Positions 48,309 through 60,253 of a stretch of DNA of 64,000 nucleotides are shown here, piece by piece; within the stretch, counting starts at the first letter, position 1; each line of letters begins with the position of its first letter. The notes beneath the pieces were generated by a model. The model did no database searches. It was given only the letters and a program-made list of their open reading frames with translations, and had not been told where the DNA came from. The stretch is from Desulfocurvus sp. (GTDB lineage: Bacteria > Desulfobacterota > Desulfovibrionia > Desulfovibrionales > Desulfovibrionaceae). The stretch covers positions 62,001-126,000 of the forward strand of contig JAIMKR010000007.1 in NCBI GenBank assembly GCA_020692325.1. The letters are read 5' to 3'. A program made the position numbers and the translations under genes.

Positions 48309-49370
48309 ATGACCACCCCGGCCGATCTCGACTTTCGCCGCATCGGCATCTGGCAAACCGCCTTTCTGGGCGATGCGGTGCTCACCCTGCCCTTCATCCA
48401 GGCCCTCAAAAAGAGCCGTCCCGGCGCGGAAATCCATCTTTTCGTCCGAGCGGGCGTGGAGGGACTCTTCCGTGCCCAGCGCGAACTGGCGAGCGTACGC
48501 CCCTTCGCCAAGCGCGGCGCGCAAAAGGGCTTTTTCGCGGCGCGCGACCTGGGCCGGCGGCTGGCCGCCGAGGCATTCGACCTCTGGATCTCGCCGCACA
48601 CCAGCCTGCGCAGCGCCTACGTGGCCCGCGCCGTGGGCGCGCCCGTGCGCATCGGCTACGACGCGCCGTGGTACAACTGGTTGGCGTACACGCATTTGGT
48701 TCCCCGGCGCTTCAACGAACTCGACGAGATCGAGCGCATCTTCCAGCTCGGCGCGCCGATCGGCCTTTTCGCCGACCGCGCGCACCCCGCCCCCATGCCC
48801 CGGCTGGACCTGTCGCCCGAGGCCGTGGCCCGCGCCGACGAGATCTGCGCCGGCCTGCCGCCGGGCAAACGCCTGGGCATCCACCCCGGCTCCACCTGGC
48901 CCACCAAGTGCTGGCCGGCGGAACACTTCGCCGAGGTGGCGCGTCGGGCGCTGGCCGCCGGAGCCGTGGTGCTGCTCTTCGCCGGGCCCGGCGAGGAACA
49001 ACTCGCCGCCCACATCGCCAAGATCGCCGACGACGGCTCGGGCCGTCTGTTCAACTTGGCGAACATGCTGACGATCCCGGCGCTGGCCGCCTGCATGGCC
49101 CGGGTCGATGCCTGCCTGACCAACGACTCCGGCCCCATGCATCTGGCCTGGGCGCAGGGTGTGCCGCTGGTCGCCTGCTTCGGCCCCACGGTACGCCGGC
49201 TCGGCTTTTTCCCGCGCGGGGAGAATTCCCGCGTGCTGGAGGCGGACCTCGCCTGCCGTCCCTGCGGCCTGCACGGGCACAAGGTCTGCCCCCTGGGCCA
49301 TCACAACTGTATGCGCGACATCTCCCCCGACCAGGCCTGGACCGTCCTGCGGCCCATGCTCGGCGTCTGA
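48309..49370 (+). CDS. glycosyltransferase family 9, heptosyltransferase II-like
   Basis: This 353-aa GT9 enzyme begins with IGIWQTAFLGDAVLTLPFI (about residues 12-30, the G-D-x-x-x-x-P acceptor loop). It has GIHPGSTWPTKCWP (about 189-202) and the donor motif LTNDSGPMHLA (about 271-281). It adds a heptose or similar sugar to lipopolysaccharide core. It is cotranscribed with the pseudo-calpain gene that starts 26 bp later. Confidence 0.87.
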   Translation: MTTPADLDFRRIGIWQTAFLGDAVLTLPFIQALKKSRPGAEIHLFVRAGVEGLFRAQRELASVRPFAKRGAQKGFFAARDLGRRLAAEAFDLWISPHTSLRSAYVARAVGAPVRIGYDAPWYNWLAYTHLVPRRFNELDEIERIFQLGAPIGLFADRAHPAPMPRLDLSPEAVARADEICAGLPPGKRLGIHPGSTWPTKCWPAEHFAEVARRALAAGAVVLLFAGPGEEQLAAHIAKIADDGSGRLFNLANMLTIPALAACMARVDACLTNDSGPMHLAWAQGVPLVACFGPTVRRLGFFPRGENSRVLEADLACRPCGLHGHKVCPLGHHNCMRDISPDQAWTVLRPMLGV

Positions 49371-49396: not shown

Positions 49397-50548
49397 ATGA
49401 CGAATCTGCTTCGGCCCCTGTTTCTCGCCGCCCTGCTCACCCTGGGTATGACCGCCGCGTCCTTTGGCCTGCCCGGTCCCGGCGACGACGACTCCGACGA
49501 GTCCGCGTGCGGACGCGACTCGCGCCACGTGGCCGACGAGGCCCCGCCCGAGGGTGCGCTTTCCTCCGCGCTGGCCCGCAACTGGGACACCTGGGCCGCG
49601 GGACGCCACGTGCTCGACGCCAAGGCCATTGCTTCGCTTTTCGCCGACGCATCCATCCATGGAGAGAACGCCGCGGCGCTGGCCACCCTGGACTTCGCCC
49701 TGCGCCGGTCTGACGCCTCCGGCGCGGATACGTCAGCCCTCACTCGCGCGGAAGCACTTGCCGCCCTCCGCGACGCCGACACGCTGCGTTTCTACGCCGA
49801 CCGCGTGCGCCTGTTGCGCAAGCTCCCCCGCGCGCTCTTCACCCCTGGCGCTCCATCCCCCAAATTCCTTCGCCTCGGTCCCGGCGGCGACGACGCCCTG
49901 TTCGCCGTCATGGACGGGCTGGCCGAGAGCCGCCCGAACGTCCTCAAACACGCGCTATGCGAACTGCCCGACGGCCGTTTCCGCGTGACGCTGCCCGGCG
50001 CCGAGCCCCTCACCATCGCCGCGCCGACGGACGCCGAGCTGGCTCGGAACGACGATGCGGTCACGCTTTCCGGCGGCCGCTGGGCCCCGGCTCTGGAAAA
50101 GGCCTGGGCCGCCCTGCTGGCGCGGCAGGCGCACGAGCTGCCGGTCGGCGAATCGCCCAAACAGCCGCAGCTCTCCGACGTGTTGCGCCTGTGGACCGGC
50201 AATCCGGTGCTGGGGCTGCGCCTGCCGGGATCGGGTCAGGCCACCGACGACGACGCCCTGCGCTCCGCCCTGGCCCGCATGACCGCCCGGCGCTCCCTGG
50301 CGCTGACGCGCACCGCCACGAAAACTCCATCCAGCCCTGCCGGTCTCGCCTACGCCGTGATCGACTACGACGCCATGACCGACATGCTCACCCTGCGCGA
50401 TCCACGCGGCGGCGATTTCCTCCCCGCAGGGACGGAAGAACCGCAATCCGGTCACGCCCGCAGGGACGGCGTGTTCCATCTGAGCCTCGCCGATTTCGAG
50501 CGCCTCTTCGACGCCATCGCCGTGGAGCAGAACGACCAGCCACGCTGA
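49397..50548 (+). CDS. exported protein, calpain-like fold without catalytic residues
   Basis: This 383-aa protein has a signal peptide (about residues 1-24). From about 160 to 383 it follows the calpain (C2 peptidase) order: a GDCW-like site reads GDDA (Asp166 in the Cys position), then LCELPDGRFRV and a WAPALEKAWA helix (about 226-235, calpain W-x-x-L-x-E-K-A). AYAVIDYD follows with Leu317 in the His position, then LRDPRG with Asp335 in the Asn position, and an FHLSLADFERLF end. Cys, His and Asn are all replaced at nearly calpain spacing (151 and 18 residues). It is thus likely a non-enzymatic pseudo-protease. Fold assignment is by eye. Confidence 0.6.
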   Translation: MTNLLRPLFLAALLTLGMTAASFGLPGPGDDDSDESACGRDSRHVADEAPPEGALSSALARNWDTWAAGRHVLDAKAIASLFADASIHGENAAALATLDFALRRSDASGADTSALTRAEALAALRDADTLRFYADRVRLLRKLPRALFTPGAPSPKFLRLGPGGDDALFAVMDGLAESRPNVLKHALCELPDGRFRVTLPGAEPLTIAAPTDAELARNDDAVTLSGGRWAPALEKAWAALLARQAHELPVGESPKQPQLSDVLRLWTGNPVLGLRLPGSGQATDDDALRSALARMTARRSLALTRTATKTPSSPAGLAYAVIDYDAMTDMLTLRDPRGGDFLPAGTEEPQSGHARRDGVFHLSLADFERLFDAIAVEQNDQPR

Positions 50549-50580: not shown

Positions 50581-51030
50581 GGGAAATGCCAGCCACATTT
50601 GGGGTTCAAGCGCCCCCTCCCTGAAACCCGACGTAAAGGAAAGCAGTATTCCTTGTAAATGGGGTTCCAAGGGGTCGAAGGCTCCCGGCCTACGCCCACT
50701 CGACGCCATGACGATGTGGTTGGAAGGATGCCTCCGGCGGCCAGGGGACTTCGCGTCCCCTGGGACCCCGCGTGCATGAAAGATTTGATTCTTCAAAAAT
50801 GGGGTTCCAAGGGGCCGAAGGTCCCTTGGCCTGCGGAGCATACCCCCGCCACCACAGCTTGGACGGAGAGCGTGCAGCGTGGACGGAAGGTCTTGGCTAG
50901 GGGATGCCTCTGGCGGCCAGCCCCATTCGGGGTTCGAGCGCGCCCTCTGAGGCCCGACGTGAAGAATCGCAGTATTTCTTCCGTAAACGGGGTTCCAAGA
51001 GGCCGAAGATCCCTTGGCCTGAGAGCATGT
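50581..51030. repeat. cluster of hairpin-forming interspersed repeats
   Basis: The 614-bp gap 50549-51162 holds no gene I can support but is largely repeat. Direct copies of GGGGTTCCAAGGGGCCGAAG plus its self-complementary end lie at 50660-50690, 50800-50832 and 50989-51019. Each folds as CCAAGGG...CCCTTGG. An inverted relative is at 50728-50770. Two larger segments, about 50590-50692 and 50914-51022, match over roughly 100 bp, so a bigger unit has been duplicated with drift. Confidence 0.75.
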
Positions 51031-53168: not shown

Positions 53169-54434
53169 TTACTTCAGCTCGCCCATGGGCAGGCGGCCGA
53201 TCTTTCTGGCGTAGGCCAGGGCCACAGTACGGTAGACCAGATGCCCGAGCTTGGACCAGGGCAAGTAGGCGAGGAGCATGAACACGCAGATCAGGTGCAG
53301 GTAGTACACGGGGTAGGCGATCACGGGCTGGTTCATGAGGCGGAAGACCTCCGAACCGAGGCCGGTGAGGGCGATGCCCCAGATGACGGTGAGCAGGTAC
53401 CAGTCGTACCAGTTGCTGGTGCTCTTGGCGGCGTCCAGGCTGGTGCGACGGCTGGTCAGTTTCGTCAGGCCGTAAACGAGGGCCACGGCGCCGGCGTTGG
53501 CCAGCAGCTTCACGGGGCTCCACAGCGGCATGGGGGTGTGGCCGGCCCAGGCGATCAGCCCGGCGAAGCCGCCCTCGATGCCCATGACGCGCTCGAGGAA
53601 CCACGCGCCGAACCAGTGGCCGAAGGCCACGACGCCGGTGACGACCATCAGCGCGATGAAGGCGTAGAACAGGAACAGGTGGCCCGTGACGCGCTGCACG
53701 TCCTTCTCTTCCTCGCCGCAATTGCGGAAGCGGCTATGCTGGGCGACCTCGTTCTTCAGCGTGTCGATGAGGCAGGAGCCGAAGCTCGGCTCAGGCCCGC
53801 GGCCGACGATGAAGGTGCGGGGCATGCCCTCGAAGCTCTTGAGCAGCCGCGAGATGCCTCCGGCGAAGCAGAAGAGCATGAATAGGAACACCGCACCAAA
53901 GATCGGGTCGATGAAGAGGTCGCCGGGGAAGAGCCCGCCGAAGACGACGGAACCCTGCGGATCGACAGCCCACTCATGACCGTTGGCCACGAACAGCGGG
54001 AAGGCGCTGCCGAGCTTGGCGGCCTGGGCGGACCAGATGAAGGCGTAGAGGATCGCCGGGATGAGCACGAGAATGGGCAGGTACTTGGCGGAGCTCATCC
54101 AGGTGCCGATGCAGCTCGGCTTGGCCAGGTTGCGGTAGGCCATGTTGCGCAGGGCGGCCAGCAGGTCGCCCGGCTTGGCGCCGCGCGGGCACAAGTCGGA
54201 GCACGCGCCGCAGTTGTGGCACAGCCAGATGTCAACGTCGTTGAGCAGACGGTCTTTCAGGCCCCACTGGGCCCAGACCATCTCCTTGCGCGGATACGGG
54301 GCGTCCGCCGGGGAGAGCGGACAAGCCACGGAGCAGGTGGCGCACTGATAGCACTTTTTGAGCGACTCCCCGCCCACCTGCTGCAGTTCCTGAACAAATT
54401 TCAGGTCGGGTTGAACCCTGACGGTATTCGACAT
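53169..54434 (-). CDS. qmoC: QmoC, menaquinone-interacting subunit
   Basis: This 421-aa protein fuses an HdrC-like module with two [4Fe-4S] motifs, CYQCATCSVACP (about residues 28-39) and CHNCGACSDLCP (about 72-83), to an HdrE-like membrane domain of about six helices (from about 115). His residues in helices, e.g. HLFLFYA and YYLHLIC, can ligate heme b. It takes electrons from menaquinol for QmoB/A. GGAGG precedes ATG 54434. Confidence 0.92.
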   Translation of the reverse strand: MSNTVRVQPDLKFVQELQQVGGESLKKCYQCATCSVACPLSPADAPYPRKEMVWAQWGLKDRLLNDVDIWLCHNCGACSDLCPRGAKPGDLLAALRNMAYRNLAKPSCIGTWMSSAKYLPILVLIPAILYAFIWSAQAAKLGSAFPLFVANGHEWAVDPQGSVVFGGLFPGDLFIDPIFGAVFLFMLFCFAGGISRLLKSFEGMPRTFIVGRGPEPSFGSCLIDTLKNEVAQHSRFRNCGEEEKDVQRVTGHLFLFYAFIALMVVTGVVAFGHWFGAWFLERVMGIEGGFAGLIAWAGHTPMPLWSPVKLLANAGAVALVYGLTKLTSRRTSLDAAKSTSNWYDWYLLTVIWGIALTGLGSEVFRLMNQPVIAYPVYYLHLICVFMLLAYLPWSKLGHLVYRTVALAYARKIGRLPMGELK

Positions 54435-54447
54435 GGTTCCGAACCTC

Positions 54448-56721
54448 CTAGTAGCCCTTGAACGGGTTGGGACCAAACTTGGTGATGACTTCGCTCATGA
54501 AGCGATCGATGATCTCCGGCACCTTGTCGTATTCGTCGATGGAGACTTCGTACTGCTCCACGCGCTCGGCCTCGACCCCGAGACGGCCCAGCGACTCGGC
54601 GATGTTGACCTTGCGGCGGCTGCACAACTCCGAGCCCTTGACGAAGTGGCACTGGTAATCCAGGCCGTACTTGCAGCCCAGCAGGATCACGCCGTCCACG
54701 CCCTTGCTGATGGCGTCGGCCACCCAAATGGCGTTGACGGAACCGAGGCAGCGCACGGGAACGAAGCGGACGAACGGGCTCCACTTCTTGCCGCGGAAGG
54801 CGGCCATGTCGAGCGCGGGGTAGGCGTCGTTCTCGCAGCACAGCACGATGACGCGCGGTCCGCCCGCCACCATGTCGTCCGGCACGTAGACCTCTTTGAT
54901 GGTCGAGCCGATCTGGTCGACATTGTAGGTGTCGAAGCTGATGACGCGCTCGGGGCAGGCGCCCATGCAGGTGCCGCAGCGGCGGCAGCGCGTCGGATTC
55001 GGCTTCGGCGTGCCCTTCTCGTCGTCGTCCAGGGCGCCGAAGGGGCATTCCTCGGTGCAGCGCTTGCACTGGGTGCAGCGCTGGAAGTTGAACACCGGGT
55101 AGGAGAGGTCGCCGCTTCTGGGGTGCACGGCCACGCCACGGTTGGCGGAGCTGATGCACTGCACGGCCTTGAGCACGGCGCCGGCCGCATCCTCGCGGGC
55201 GGTGGCCATGGTCATGGGCTGACGCACGCAGCCAGCCGCGTACACGCCGGTGCGCCGCGTCTCGTAGGGGAAGCAGACGTAATTGGAGTCGGCGAAGCCG
55301 TCGAAGACCTCCAGGTCGGGGAAGCCCGGGCCCTGGCGGTATTCGAAGTTCATGGTCGGCTCGTGCGCGGTGGTGGGCACCACGGCGGTGGGCAGCACGA
55401 CCAAGTCGGCCTTGATCTCGACGTCGGGGCCGAGCAGCGTGTCCTTCGCGGAGATGATGACCCCGCCGTCGGCATCGGCCTTCACGCCCGTGATGGTGGC
55501 CTTGGAGAGCATGATGCCCGCCTCGTCCTGGGCGGCCTTGTAGTAGCGCTCGTTGATGCCGGGCACCATCATGTGGTCGTAGAGCACGTAGGCCAAGGCG
55601 TTCGGCAGCTTCTCGCGCACGTAGCCCGCGTGCTTCAGGGCAACCAGGCTGGTGATCTCGGAGCTGTAGGCCAAGTGCTTGGCGCTTTCCTTGTCGGGAT
55701 AGGGATTGACCTCGGCCTCGGCCGGGGCGGCCTCGGCGGCGGGAGCGGCGACGGCCTCGCCCTCGGCGCAGGCGGCCTCGGGGGCCTCCTCGACGGTCTT
55801 GGTGCACAGGCGCACGTCGGTCAGAATGGCCACGGAGGCCGGAGCCTTGCCGTCGCTCGGACGCTTGATCTCGCCCTGCTTGACCATAGCCTCGAACTCG
55901 GAGGCGGTGACCACGTTCTTGATGCTGCCGTAGCCCATGGGGGCCAGGAAGCTCTTGTCGCCGGGCACCCAGCCGGTGGCCAGAACCACCGCGCCGATCT
56001 CCAGCGGCTGATCGTTGACGGTGGCGGTGTAAAGGCCGGGCGCGCCGTGCAGGCTCTTGAGCTCGGCATTCAGCAGCACCTTGATCTTCGGGTTGGCGTT
56101 CACGGCCTCGATGAGGCCGGTGATGCCGGTGTCCTCGGCCTTGTTGAAGGGGGCCGAGAGCGGGAAGGACTTGTACATGGTCGCGGCCTTGCCGCCGAGG
56201 GCGCCGGAGCGCTCGACGATCACCACGTCGCGGCCGAGCTTGGCGGCCTCGAGCGCGGCGTTGAGGCCGGTGAAGCCGCCACCGAGCACCATGATGGTCT
56301 GGTGCGTCTCCGGCAGCTCGGGCGCGGGCACGCGGCTCTTGGAGAGCCTCATCATGCCCATGCGAACGTAGTCCTTCGCGATGAGCGGCAGCTGACCGGG
56401 CAGCTTCGGGTCATCCTCGAAGCTCCACACGCAGTGTTCGCGCAGGTTCACGCGCTCCACCTGGACGCCGCCGAACTGGAAGATGTCCCACTTGACACGC
56501 GGGGAGCAGGCGCACAGCACCACGCCATCCAGACCGCTGGCCGCGATGTCGGCCTCGATCTCGGCCTTGCCCTCGGGGCTGCAGAGAACGGGACACTTCT
56601 TCACCACCGGGGTGATGTTCGCGAGCTTGCTTTTTTTGGCGTAATCGACCAGCTCGTCCACATTGAGGGACTTGCCGATATCGCAGCCCTCACAGATATA
56701 AACTCCAAGCTTTTCGGCCAT
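54448..56721 (-). CDS. qmoB: QmoB, HdrA/MvhD-like flavoprotein
   Basis: This 757-aa protein has an N-terminal CEGCDIG motif, then an FAD/NAD-binding region with VLGGGFTGLNAALEAAKLG (about 146-164), and tandem ferredoxin motifs CTQCKRCTEECP and CRRCGTCMGACP near 550-590. The C-terminal ~140 residues resemble MvhD/HdrD. An Ala/Glu-rich insert of about 30 residues (near 310-340) is lineage specific. It transfers electrons between QmoC and AprBA. Confidence 0.9.
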   Translation of the reverse strand: MAEKLGVYICEGCDIGKSLNVDELVDYAKKSKLANITPVVKKCPVLCSPEGKAEIEADIAASGLDGVVLCACSPRVKWDIFQFGGVQVERVNLREHCVWSFEDDPKLPGQLPLIAKDYVRMGMMRLSKSRVPAPELPETHQTIMVLGGGFTGLNAALEAAKLGRDVVIVERSGALGGKAATMYKSFPLSAPFNKAEDTGITGLIEAVNANPKIKVLLNAELKSLHGAPGLYTATVNDQPLEIGAVVLATGWVPGDKSFLAPMGYGSIKNVVTASEFEAMVKQGEIKRPSDGKAPASVAILTDVRLCTKTVEEAPEAACAEGEAVAAPAAEAAPAEAEVNPYPDKESAKHLAYSSEITSLVALKHAGYVREKLPNALAYVLYDHMMVPGINERYYKAAQDEAGIMLSKATITGVKADADGGVIISAKDTLLGPDVEIKADLVVLPTAVVPTTAHEPTMNFEYRQGPGFPDLEVFDGFADSNYVCFPYETRRTGVYAAGCVRQPMTMATAREDAAGAVLKAVQCISSANRGVAVHPRSGDLSYPVFNFQRCTQCKRCTEECPFGALDDDEKGTPKPNPTRCRRCGTCMGACPERVISFDTYNVDQIGSTIKEVYVPDDMVAGGPRVIVLCCENDAYPALDMAAFRGKKWSPFVRFVPVRCLGSVNAIWVADAISKGVDGVILLGCKYGLDYQCHFVKGSELCSRRKVNIAESLGRLGVEAERVEQYEVSIDEYDKVPEIIDRFMSEVITKFGPNPFKGY

Positions 56722-56724
56722 GGG

Positions 56725-57972
56725 CTACCTCCCCACCACGGTTTGAATGGCTTTCAGGGCGGCGCCGGTGCCGGTCTGGGCGGTTTTCATCACGTCCAGA
56801 GGCATTTTGGCGCAGCCGGCCGCGATAACGCCCTTGGCGGCGTCGCCGGCGATGAAGCCGTCATCGTCCATGGAAACCGGAACGGGCAGCTTGGAGCCCG
56901 CGCAGCTGGGCTGCATGCCGGTGGCCAGGACGACGAGGTCGAACTTCTCCTCGCTCTTGATCCCGGTCACTGCGTTCTCCACGGTGACGATCGGGCTCTG
57001 GCACTCGCACTCCACGATCTTGGCGACCTTGCCCTTGACGAGCGAGAGCTTGTCGTCCGCGGCGACCTTCTGCATGAAGTTGTCGTAGCGGCCAGGGGTG
57101 CGCAGATCGATGTAGTAGATGGTGACGTGCGCGTCAGGGCACTGCTCGCGGATGTAGGTGACATGCTTGAGCGAGGCCATGCAGCAGATGTAGGAGCAGT
57201 AGTTCAGGTGGTTCTCATCGCGGCTGCCGGCGCACTGCACGAAGGCGATGCGCTTGGGCTCCTTGCCGTCGCTGGGACGCAGGATCTTGCCGCCGGTGGG
57301 GCCGTTCGGCGCGGCGAGGCGCTCGAACTGCATGTTGGAGACCACGTTTTTCAGCTTGCCGCCGCCCAGGTTGGTGAGCTTGGCCATATCGTAGGGTTTC
57401 CAGCCGGTGGCCACGACGATGGAGCCCACCTGCAGATCGACGGTCTTCTCCGCGTCGGCGGTGTTCACGGCGCCGTAAGGGCAGGCCGCGGCGATCTTGT
57501 CCAGCTCACCGGGCGCGCAGGCCTTGGCGTCCACAACATAGCGCTGCGGAAAGGCGAACAGGTGCGTGCGGTAGGCGACCTTGCGGTTGCCCACGCCGAA
57601 ATCGAATTCGCTGGGCACACTGGTGGTGGCGGCCTTTTCGCACTCGCCGCACATGGTGCAGTTTGCGTTGACGAAACGCGGACGGATCTTGATCTTCACG
57701 TCGTAGGCACCGGGGCCGCCGGAAACGGAGACCACCTCGGCCATGGTGAAGAACTTCACCTTGGGATTGTTCCTGATGCGCTGAAACTGAATTTCCAGGC
57801 CGCAGGAGGGCGGGCAGAGCTTCGGGAAATATTTGTTGAGCTGCGCCACCCGGCCGCCGAGATATGGGTTGGTCTCGACGATGTAGACCTCGTGGCCGAC
57901 TTCAGCGGCTTCGAGGGCGGCGGTGATTCCGGCAAAACCGCCGCCGACGACGAGAATACTGTTGTTCGACAT
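56725..57972 (-). CDS. qmoA: QmoA, HdrA-like flavoprotein
   Basis: This 415-aa protein starts with an FAD-binding Rossmann motif, VVGGGFAGITAALEAAEVG (about residues 8-26). It has a CPPSCGLE site near 53-60 and CTMCGECEKAA near 105-115, then family blocks with CSYICCMASLKH. It forms a complex with QmoB and QmoC that delivers quinol electrons to APS reductase. GAGGGAGGA precedes its ATG. It is 286 bp downstream of aprA. Confidence 0.9.
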   Translation of the reverse strand: MSNNSILVVGGGFAGITAALEAAEVGHEVYIVETNPYLGGRVAQLNKYFPKLCPPSCGLEIQFQRIRNNPKVKFFTMAEVVSVSGGPGAYDVKIKIRPRFVNANCTMCGECEKAATTSVPSEFDFGVGNRKVAYRTHLFAFPQRYVVDAKACAPGELDKIAAACPYGAVNTADAEKTVDLQVGSIVVATGWKPYDMAKLTNLGGGKLKNVVSNMQFERLAAPNGPTGGKILRPSDGKEPKRIAFVQCAGSRDENHLNYCSYICCMASLKHVTYIREQCPDAHVTIYYIDLRTPGRYDNFMQKVAADDKLSLVKGKVAKIVECECQSPIVTVENAVTGIKSEEKFDLVVLATGMQPSCAGSKLPVPVSMDDDGFIAGDAAKGVIAAGCAKMPLDVMKTAQTGTGAALKAIQTVVGR

Positions 57973-58211
57973 TCGCTGTCCTCCCTCTAAAGTGTGCCAG
58001 GCCGGCTTGCCTGCCCGTGCGGGCCGAAAGGCCCTCGCCCCGGCTTGGGATTCCCCGAGCCCTCACGCGATGGCCGACGCGGGCGGAAGACCCCCCTGAC
58101 CGCGCGCGCCGCGTTTGGGCGAAACGGCCCCAGCCGTGAAATGGCCCGAACCCGGACTACAACGATACCGTTTCAGCGCGGGTTCAGACCACTTCCCCGT
58201 CTGGGAAGTGT

Positions 58212-58241
58212 GGCGGCCGCGGACTTGCGTCCGCGGCCGCC
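58212..58241. other. 13-bp perfect hairpin between aprA and qmoA
   Basis: Stem GGCGGCCGCGGAC / GTCCGCGGCCGCC (58212-58224 and 58229-58241) with loop TTGC, 18 bp after the aprA stop. There is no T run after it on the minus strand, so it more likely protects or partly uncouples the aprBA and qmo parts of the transcript than ends it. The rest of the 57973-58258 gap holds no gene. Confidence 0.6.
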
Positions 58242-58258
58242 GTCGTCAACTCAATTCT

Positions 58259-60253
58259 CTACTCGGGGATGATCTGGAAGTAAGGCTTCTTGTAAATCTT
58301 CACTTCCTTGGCAGCCGGATCGTACTTCGAGTTCACGAAGCACTTCCACTTGCTGTCGTCCAGGCCCATGGCGTCGCCACGGTAGTAGAAGCCGGGGTAA
58401 CGGGTCTCGTCACGGAACTCGATGTGCTGCAGGTGCAGGCGCACGGTCCACAGACGGTGGAACTGCTCCCAGCAGCGCATAAGCTCGTGGAGATCGCGGG
58501 CGGCCAGCTTCTTGCTGTCCTCTTCCATCATGCCCATGAGCCAGAAGGCGGTCTTCAGCAGAGCGCCGGAGGTCATGTACAGGGTGGCGCAGCCTCCGCC
58601 GTACTCATCGGTGCACTTGATCAGGCGCATCATGAAGTTACGCGGGGTGATGTAGTTGGGGTTGATGTCGGGAGCGGTGGAAGCGCCCTTGAACTTCTCG
58701 TAGGTGTACATGGGCGCGTAGATCTCCTTGCAGAGATCGGCGGCAGCCTCTTTCAAAGCGGGCTTGAAGTCCTTGTGGTCAACGACCCAACGGACCATCT
58801 GCTTGCCGGCGATGCGACCCTCGGCATGGGAGCCGGAGGAGAACTTGTGGCCGGAAGCGCCAACGCCGTCAGCGCAGGTGAAGAGGCCCTCGACGGTGGT
58901 CATGCGGTTGTAAACCTTGCCGTTGGTGGCGCGGATTTTGTAATCCTCGGGAACCCAGGTCTCGTCCGGACCGGAAACCCAGATGCCGCAGCAACCGGAG
59001 TGCGAACCGAGCAGGTACGGCTCGGTGGGCATGATCTCGGAACCACGCTCCTCGGGAGCGCAGTTGGTGCAGGCCCACAGGTTGGCCATGCCGACGCACA
59101 TGTCGAGGAAGTCTTCCCAGGCCTCGCTCTCGAGGTGCTTCCACAGGGGGCTCTTCAGGTCGTTGTTGATGGTGGCCATCAAAGCGCCCTTGGTGTCCAT
59201 GAAGATCGGGCCGCGGCCTTCACGCATTTCACGGAGCATCATGTGGTTGCGCAGGCAGGTGGGCACCACGTGACCCTTGGCGTAGCCACGGTCCTCGTAG
59301 GGCTTCAGCATGGCGCGGTTGGTGGCGCAGTAGTCCTCGCCCTTGTAGTTGGTGGCCTTGGCCTTGAAGAGCAGGAACCAAGCGCCGACCGGGCCGTAAC
59401 CGTCCTTGAAGCGGGCGGGCACGAAGCGGTTTTCCATCATGGTCATCTCGGCGCCGACCTGAGCGCACATGGTGTAGGTGGAACCGGCGTTCCACACGGG
59501 GTACCAAGCGCGGCCCATGCCCTCACCGGTGGAGCGGGGACGGAACACGTTGACCGCGCCGCCGCAAGCCACGAGGCAAGCGTTGCAGGTGATGACGTAC
59601 ACCTTGTTCTCGCGGGTGCTGAAGCCCACGGCGCCGGCGATGCGGTTCGGGGTGTTGGCGTCCAGCAGCAGCTTCACGATGAAGACGCGCTCGATGTAGC
59701 GGTCGTCGCCCAGGGCCTTTTTCGCGGCCTCGGCCACGATGACCTTGTAGGACTCACCGTTGATCATGATCTGCCAACGGCCGGAACGCACCGGGGCGTC
59801 GCCGTTGCGCAGGGACAGGCCCTGGGCCTTGGCCTGGGCGCCGTCGAGGTTGTGACCGTCCTTCTTGATCCAGACGGGCAGGCCCCACTCTTCGAACAGA
59901 TGCACGGAGTCATCGACGTGGCGGCCGAGGTCGAAGATCAGGTCTTCGCGGACCAGGCCCATGAGGTCGGTGCGGACCATGCGGACGTAGTCGTCGGCCT
60001 TCTGCTCTTTGCCAATGTAGGTATTGATGGCGGAAAGGCCCTGGGCCACGGCGCCGGAACGCTCGAGGGCGGCCTTATCGAACAGCAGCACGGAAATGCC
60101 ACCGATCTGATCAGCCCAACGGCAGGCCTCGTAGGCCGCGCCGCAGCTGCCCATGCCGCCGCCGACGATCAGAATGTCGGCGTGCTTCTCGACAATGGTC
60201 GGCTCGGCCAGGGGGACGCCTTTGCAAACATCTTTCGCAGGAATCTGAGGCAT
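58259..60253 (-). CDS. aprA: adenylylsulfate reductase alpha subunit
   Basis: This 664-aa FAD flavoprotein has a Rossmann motif ILIVGGGMGSCGAAYEA (about residues 27-43), VFDGRH-like blocks in the family order and full family length. It reduces APS to sulfite and AMP with the AprB ferredoxin subunit, in the cytoplasm. ATG 60253 follows GGAGG. It is encoded after aprB with a 77-bp gap. Confidence 0.95.
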   Translation of the reverse strand: MPQIPAKDVCKGVPLAEPTIVEKHADILIVGGGMGSCGAAYEACRWADQIGGISVLLFDKAALERSGAVAQGLSAINTYIGKEQKADDYVRMVRTDLMGLVREDLIFDLGRHVDDSVHLFEEWGLPVWIKKDGHNLDGAQAKAQGLSLRNGDAPVRSGRWQIMINGESYKVIVAEAAKKALGDDRYIERVFIVKLLLDANTPNRIAGAVGFSTRENKVYVITCNACLVACGGAVNVFRPRSTGEGMGRAWYPVWNAGSTYTMCAQVGAEMTMMENRFVPARFKDGYGPVGAWFLLFKAKATNYKGEDYCATNRAMLKPYEDRGYAKGHVVPTCLRNHMMLREMREGRGPIFMDTKGALMATINNDLKSPLWKHLESEAWEDFLDMCVGMANLWACTNCAPEERGSEIMPTEPYLLGSHSGCCGIWVSGPDETWVPEDYKIRATNGKVYNRMTTVEGLFTCADGVGASGHKFSSGSHAEGRIAGKQMVRWVVDHKDFKPALKEAAADLCKEIYAPMYTYEKFKGASTAPDINPNYITPRNFMMRLIKCTDEYGGGCATLYMTSGALLKTAFWLMGMMEEDSKKLAARDLHELMRCWEQFHRLWTVRLHLQHIEFRDETRYPGFYYRGDAMGLDDSKWKCFVNSKYDPAAKEVKIYKKPYFQIIPE

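Follow-up and report, generated by a model that had tools for sequence, protein, structure and literature searches.

P0001, the product of a plus-strand gene in the window (the whole 64,000-nucleotide stretch of DNA analysed here), is almost certainly a dead homologue of the calpains (peptidase family C2), and from the residues in its sequence it is very likely to be without proteolytic activity. Our preferred reading, towards which we lean slightly, is that it is probably exported, belongs to a bacterial lineage of calpains that is rare, no longer cuts proteins and would be retained as a binding or regulatory pseudoprotease of the envelope. The gene lies directly behind a heptosyltransferase gene, and the relevant features are:

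48309–49370, plus strand: GT9 heptosyltransferase gene, upstream of P0001 with a 26 bp gap (PF01075, E = 2.9e-40).
49397–50548, plus strand: P0001, a calpain (C2) homologue of 383 aa without the four catalytic residues (pairwise match, and HMM test with shuffled copies).
49397–49465, plus strand: signal-peptide-like N-terminus, residues ~1–23 (by eye in the translation).
49544–49816, plus strand: N-terminal helical domain, residues ~50–140, with an RNW..W motif and GENAAAL (invariant columns kept, and AF2 model).
49874–49894, plus strand: former oxyanion-Gln/Cys motif, QGP[VP]GDC in the homologues and LGPGGDD in P0001 (L160, D166; alignment A4).
50345–50359, plus strand: former His motif, HVYAI in the homologues and LAYAV in P0001 (L317; alignment A4).
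50399–50410, plus strand: former Asn motif, NPWG in the homologues and DPRG in P0001 (D335, R337; alignment A4).

The active-site Gln, Cys, His and Asn are invariant in three full-length homologues, and the corresponding positions of P0001 are Leu160, Asp166, Leu317 and Asp335. The original prediction had Cys, His and Asn replaced by Asp166, Leu317 and Asp335, which is exact, and the oxyanion Gln is missing too; in addition, Arg337 stands in place of the Trp of NPW. A distant calpain from Calothrix, when added to the alignment, agrees with the homologues at Q, C and H and has a Ser in the Asn column. P0001 therefore contains neither the Gln oxyanion residue nor any member of the Cys/His/Asn triad of an active C2 peptidase. 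Cys38 and Cys188, its only cysteines, align away from the catalytic residues and are not common to the relatives, which leaves an alternative active site built from conserved Cys or His residues elsewhere unsupported. We know of no C2 chemistry that remains when Cys and His are both lost.

By itself, P0001 has no match in Pfam at E values up to 10 and none in NCBIfam, does not reach PF00648, and as a single query finds no relative in searches of genome contigs, viral contigs, phages and plasmids. The Pfam calpain model matches a single protein among 395 genomes of the phylum, a 379-residue protein of Trichlorobacter thiogenes (named from locus L056, a genome-contig match at 100%), and P0001 is 34% identical to this protein over 330 residues (E = 4e-56). 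Two further full-length relatives are present in a genome of the same genus as T. thiogenes (G973), in whose class 2 of 277 genomes matched, and in a MAG binned as Acidobacteria (L057), a 4.6-kb contig for which the binning may be wrong. All three relatives are above the Peptidase_C2 (PF00648) cut-off of 23.8 bits, at 38.4, 25.3 and 37.4 bits. A three-row profile matches 2 of the 395 phylum genomes, those of P0001 itself and of T. thiogenes. PF00648 has no match in 99 near genomes; it has none in 14 control genomes either, so this absence is weak.

A profile of the three relatives gives P0001 181.6 bits, compared with 4.0 for the best of 500 shuffled copies and 1.0 for the best unrelated ORF among the 283 stop-to-stop ORFs of the window (row '+1_48218_776' represents the frame of P0001 and is left out of the unrelated ORFs), and chance is excluded as the source of the match. 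A profile of calpains from Calothrix, Mycolicibacterium and Streptomyces recovers the three relatives at E values of 4.3e-11 or better and ranks P0001 at the top of the window with 8.6 bits (E = 0.022; best shuffle 7.0). Because this score is low and close to that of the best shuffle, direct resemblance to calpains is marginal without the intermediates, and the calpain ancestry of P0001 rests on them. The calpain resemblance originally claimed thus stands as C2 homology, by which P0001 belongs by descent among the PF00648 calpain homologues, and is marginal as a direct likeness. PDB sequence searches yielded nothing credible for P0001 or for profile A2, and these misses are uninformative on P0001 because the intact T. 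thiogenes protein also matched no calpain chain there. The latter protein has no phage or viral-contig relative and one distant match among plasmids, from Calothrix (E = 4e-3). PADLOC gives a chance-level match (E = 0.034) and PHROGs none.

The ATG of P0001 is preceded by a GAGG ribosome-site-like stretch, and the protein begins with a hydrophobic, signal-peptide-like leader; hydrophobic leaders also open all three homologues (all judged by eye). From this start P0001 is probably exported and periplasmic, in agreement with the original description of an exported protein. The Trichlorobacter homologue (L056) resembles P0001 in its leader, N-terminal helical domain, C2 core and length (~380 aa), but differs in keeping Q, C, H and N and in having an NlpC/P60 neighbour, itself with a leader. 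Such a leader-bearing NlpC/P60-type protein adjoins the calpain homologue in all three relatives (L056:6001–7997, L060:638–2595 and L057:739–2659), and the intact relatives thus reveal a calpain and NlpC/P60 gene pair in Trichlorobacter and in the contig binned as Acidobacteria. In the two Trichlorobacter-genus genomes the NlpC/P60 gene is on the same strand as the calpain gene, is assigned by Pfam, and encodes products 83% identical to each other; on the MAG contig it is convergent and is assigned from 63% identity to the T. thiogenes NlpC/P60 protein. The pair is possibly a functional unit. No such adjacent gene is present at P0001.

In the preferred reading, the P0001 gene would have been acquired by horizontal transfer, as suggested by its scattered occurrence. 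The two halves of the calpain core may still fold together, and the former cleft, with Asp where the Cys/His site was, would bind an envelope peptide or protein without cutting it, giving P0001 the role of a binding or regulatory pseudoprotease. We place the chance of a maintained binding role at somewhat over half. A more specific version, held tentatively and at a little below even chances, is that P0001 is an exported bacterial pseudocalpain with a maintained new function, in which the Asp-lined cleft would trap a peptide or envelope protein, or else something that partners or inhibits an active exported protease; it would be a bacterial counterpart of calpamodulin with an independent origin after horizontal transfer.

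A serious rival to a binding protein, albeit on the unlikely side in our judgement, is that an acquired calpain gene, lacking both the NlpC/P60 neighbour and the catalytic residues, is under relaxed selection and drifting towards a pseudogene with the frame still open. Its narrow distribution speaks for this rival: P0001 was found in 1 of 348 genomes of its order by single-sequence search, and a four-row profile (at a stricter default limit of E 0.001) likewise finds its own genome alone among 348 of the class. Four weak matches in the order (E 5.5e-4 to 6.2e-3) were dropped before this count; one, in G030, is antisense to a histidine-kinase-like ORF, two have a stop inside, and the fourth spans 67 residues. 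Relaxed selection is also favored by the lack of a relative of the T. thiogenes NlpC/P60 protein in P0001's genome (best E = 0.038, with a stop inside; the search covered relatives of this one protein), by variation among congeners in the stretch behind the GT9 gene, and by composition. Ala makes up 17% of residues, GC2 is 0.55 where called genes average 0.46, and GC3 (0.84) is below the 0.88–0.93 of five nearby genes.

Other properties of the gene argue against decay. The frame runs through 383 codons without a stop and stays in register with homologues that are only about one-third identical, the leader and ribosome-site-like stretch are present, and codon usage matches the region: the synonymous codon usage value is 0.186, whereas 43 heuristically called genes average 0.196 and 14 of them are lower. 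The heuristic behind this gene set is rough and passed over P0001, the longest ORF of which starts inside the GT9 gene, and the background composition includes P0001 and any missed genes.

The pattern of residue loss bears on both readings. P0001 keeps 93 of the 201 columns invariant in the three relatives, including 20 of 45 in the N-terminal domain and 71 of 146 in the core, where the other 75 are changed. Close to the three catalytic motifs P0001 keeps 7/16, 3/12 and 6/12, and blocks surviving away from the catalytic residues include DGRFRV, PTDAELA.ND and LEKA. At the core's rate of change all four catalytic residues would be lost by chance with a probability of ~0.07, so there is no sharp hot spot of loss at these positions, and for this reason relaxed selection stays in contention with roughly half of the invariant core gone. 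Invariant Gly (11/15), Arg (9/11) and Ala (16/22) are the best kept, which speaks for constraint, although high-GC drift also favours these residues; Ile (0/9), Lys (1/10), Val (2/14) and Ser (2/10) are the worst kept of the commoner ones, and drift of this kind could also produce this slant. The dead form is represented by one sequence.

It is very improbable that P0001 is still an enzyme acting through new residues, such as an Asp166/Asp335 pair or Cys188 with His185. The old site has neither a nucleophile nor a base, and Cys188 and His185 do not align with the catalytic residues, nor does either show conservation among the relatives. In favor of such an enzyme, Cys and Asn are both replaced by acidic residues, a calpain can stay functional when Asn alone is exchanged for Asp, as in PalB (PMC4631099), and according to a review a calpain with substitutions in the triad is not always inactive (PMC7912814).

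Equally doubtful is the proposal that P0001 and the heptosyltransferase encoded upstream act together in making the LPS core, since 13 of 14 congeners retain a GT9 orthologue (71–84% identity) and none of the 14 yielded P0001. The original prediction had linked P0001 to LPS sugar transfer, and this part of it is not supported; the genes share a strand and are 26 bp apart, which makes co-transcription likely, yet the association is local, because congeners carry GT9 without P0001, and does not amount to a conserved linkage or to membership of an LPS core cluster. The remaining congener (G011, 73% complete) has only a distant GT9 (30%), and P0001 is absent from all 19 fetched stretches behind GT9 genes. 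The neighbours of the homologues also differ as far as seen by eye, with no glycosyltransferase recognised beside the three by inspection (the family search there covered the NlpC/P60 neighbours). GT9 enzymes act in the cytoplasm, whereas P0001 is probably exported.

The stretch behind the GT9 gene has its own features. In the congener with the highest GT9 identity (G007, 84%) the downstream aminotransferase gene is also present, with other genes between; this interval contains an SBP_bac_6 solute-binding protein gene and further ORFs (L033:1180–2220), and no P0001. The solute-binding protein was not found in P0001's genome. These arrangements point to a variable spot among congeners. Behind P0001 are three copies of a 37-nt repeat (window 50657–50693, 50797–50833 and 50985–51021; core GGGGTTCCAAGGGGCCGAAGG), which occurs genome-wide at 11 places within 3 mismatches, the three window copies included, and at none with the reversed control. 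This dispersed repeat could mark an insertion-prone site.

Calpamodulin, androglobin and the trypanosomatid calpains without a full triad are intracellular, multi-domain proteins. They are eukaryotic, whereas P0001 is bacterial and probably exported. They are like P0001 in having catalytic residues replaced (PMC4631099 and PMC7912814, in the parts concerned), and the passages of the latter review describe inactive calpains in animals and discuss them in trypanosomatids. Bacterial calpain homologues are rare and patchy, with 66–67 counted by Rawlings in 2015 (PMC4631099); its passages on bacteria attribute signal peptides to three of them, one being Geobacter lovleyi B3E5A8, which is probably the G973 protein, and describe all as predicted peptidases with one exception from Frankia. 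This protein, from Frankia sp. EUN1f, is thus like P0001 in not being a predicted peptidase and is the sole bacterial exception in those passages of the survey; it is listed among sequences without Asn, and P0001 is without Q, C, H and N. The same source classes 337 of 3795 calpain homologues as non-peptidases, in passages that give no breakdown by organism, and it discusses only a chosen set of 267 homologues; further dead bacterial calpains may be among the 337. The relevant part of a cyanobacterial survey reports the triad in 13 of 13 proteins (PMC9380684). None of the matches listed from the open-licence literature reports a bacterial calpain that lacks both Cys and His.

Calpain-family pseudoenzymes have thus been described in eukaryotes, with one bacterial exception named in the 2015 survey and listed for its missing Asn (PMC4631099). 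If the preferred reading of P0001 as an envelope pseudoprotease is true, bacteria too have put the C2 fold to a non-catalytic use, with frame, leader and core motifs kept. P0001 would be a simple form, and at ~380 residues its purification should be easy.

Structure models of P0001 are too weak to carry a claim for or against the papain-like two-lobed PC1/PC2 fold. AF2 with one sequence gives a mean pLDDT of 35.5, and with three sequences a poor model with a mean pLDDT of 47.8 and pTM of 0.34, the best-predicted part being the N-terminal helical domain (ten-residue blocks with pLDDT 63–84). Foldseek searches with the weak model find nothing below E = 1.7, and VIA-align places calpain II (1mdw_B) at rank 36 with a Z of 3.3, unrelated rows scoring equal or higher. 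Residues 316–371 of the model overlay the calpain II core at 261–335 (rmsd 2.3, 44 aligned, 32% identity), which is where a match would be expected, and L317 in this overlay presumably lies at about the position of the calpain His, taken from the calpain residue number.

The modelled N-terminal helical domain (49544–49816, residues 50–140) is weakly like EF-hand pairs (Z up to 4.9). The calmodulin-like rows for residues 50–141 reach the same Z, which is in the range of common arrangements, and are not taken as evidence; no canonical calcium loop is seen in this domain. In the Calothrix calpain, the stretch ahead of the core aligns with the N-terminal helical domain of P0001. Elsewhere in the window, a minus-strand group of sulfate-reduction genes (53169–60253) contains qmoC, two HdrA-like genes, which are presumably qmoA and qmoB, and aprA. 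Because the window carries aprA and qmoC, the organism is a sulfate reducer, as originally stated.
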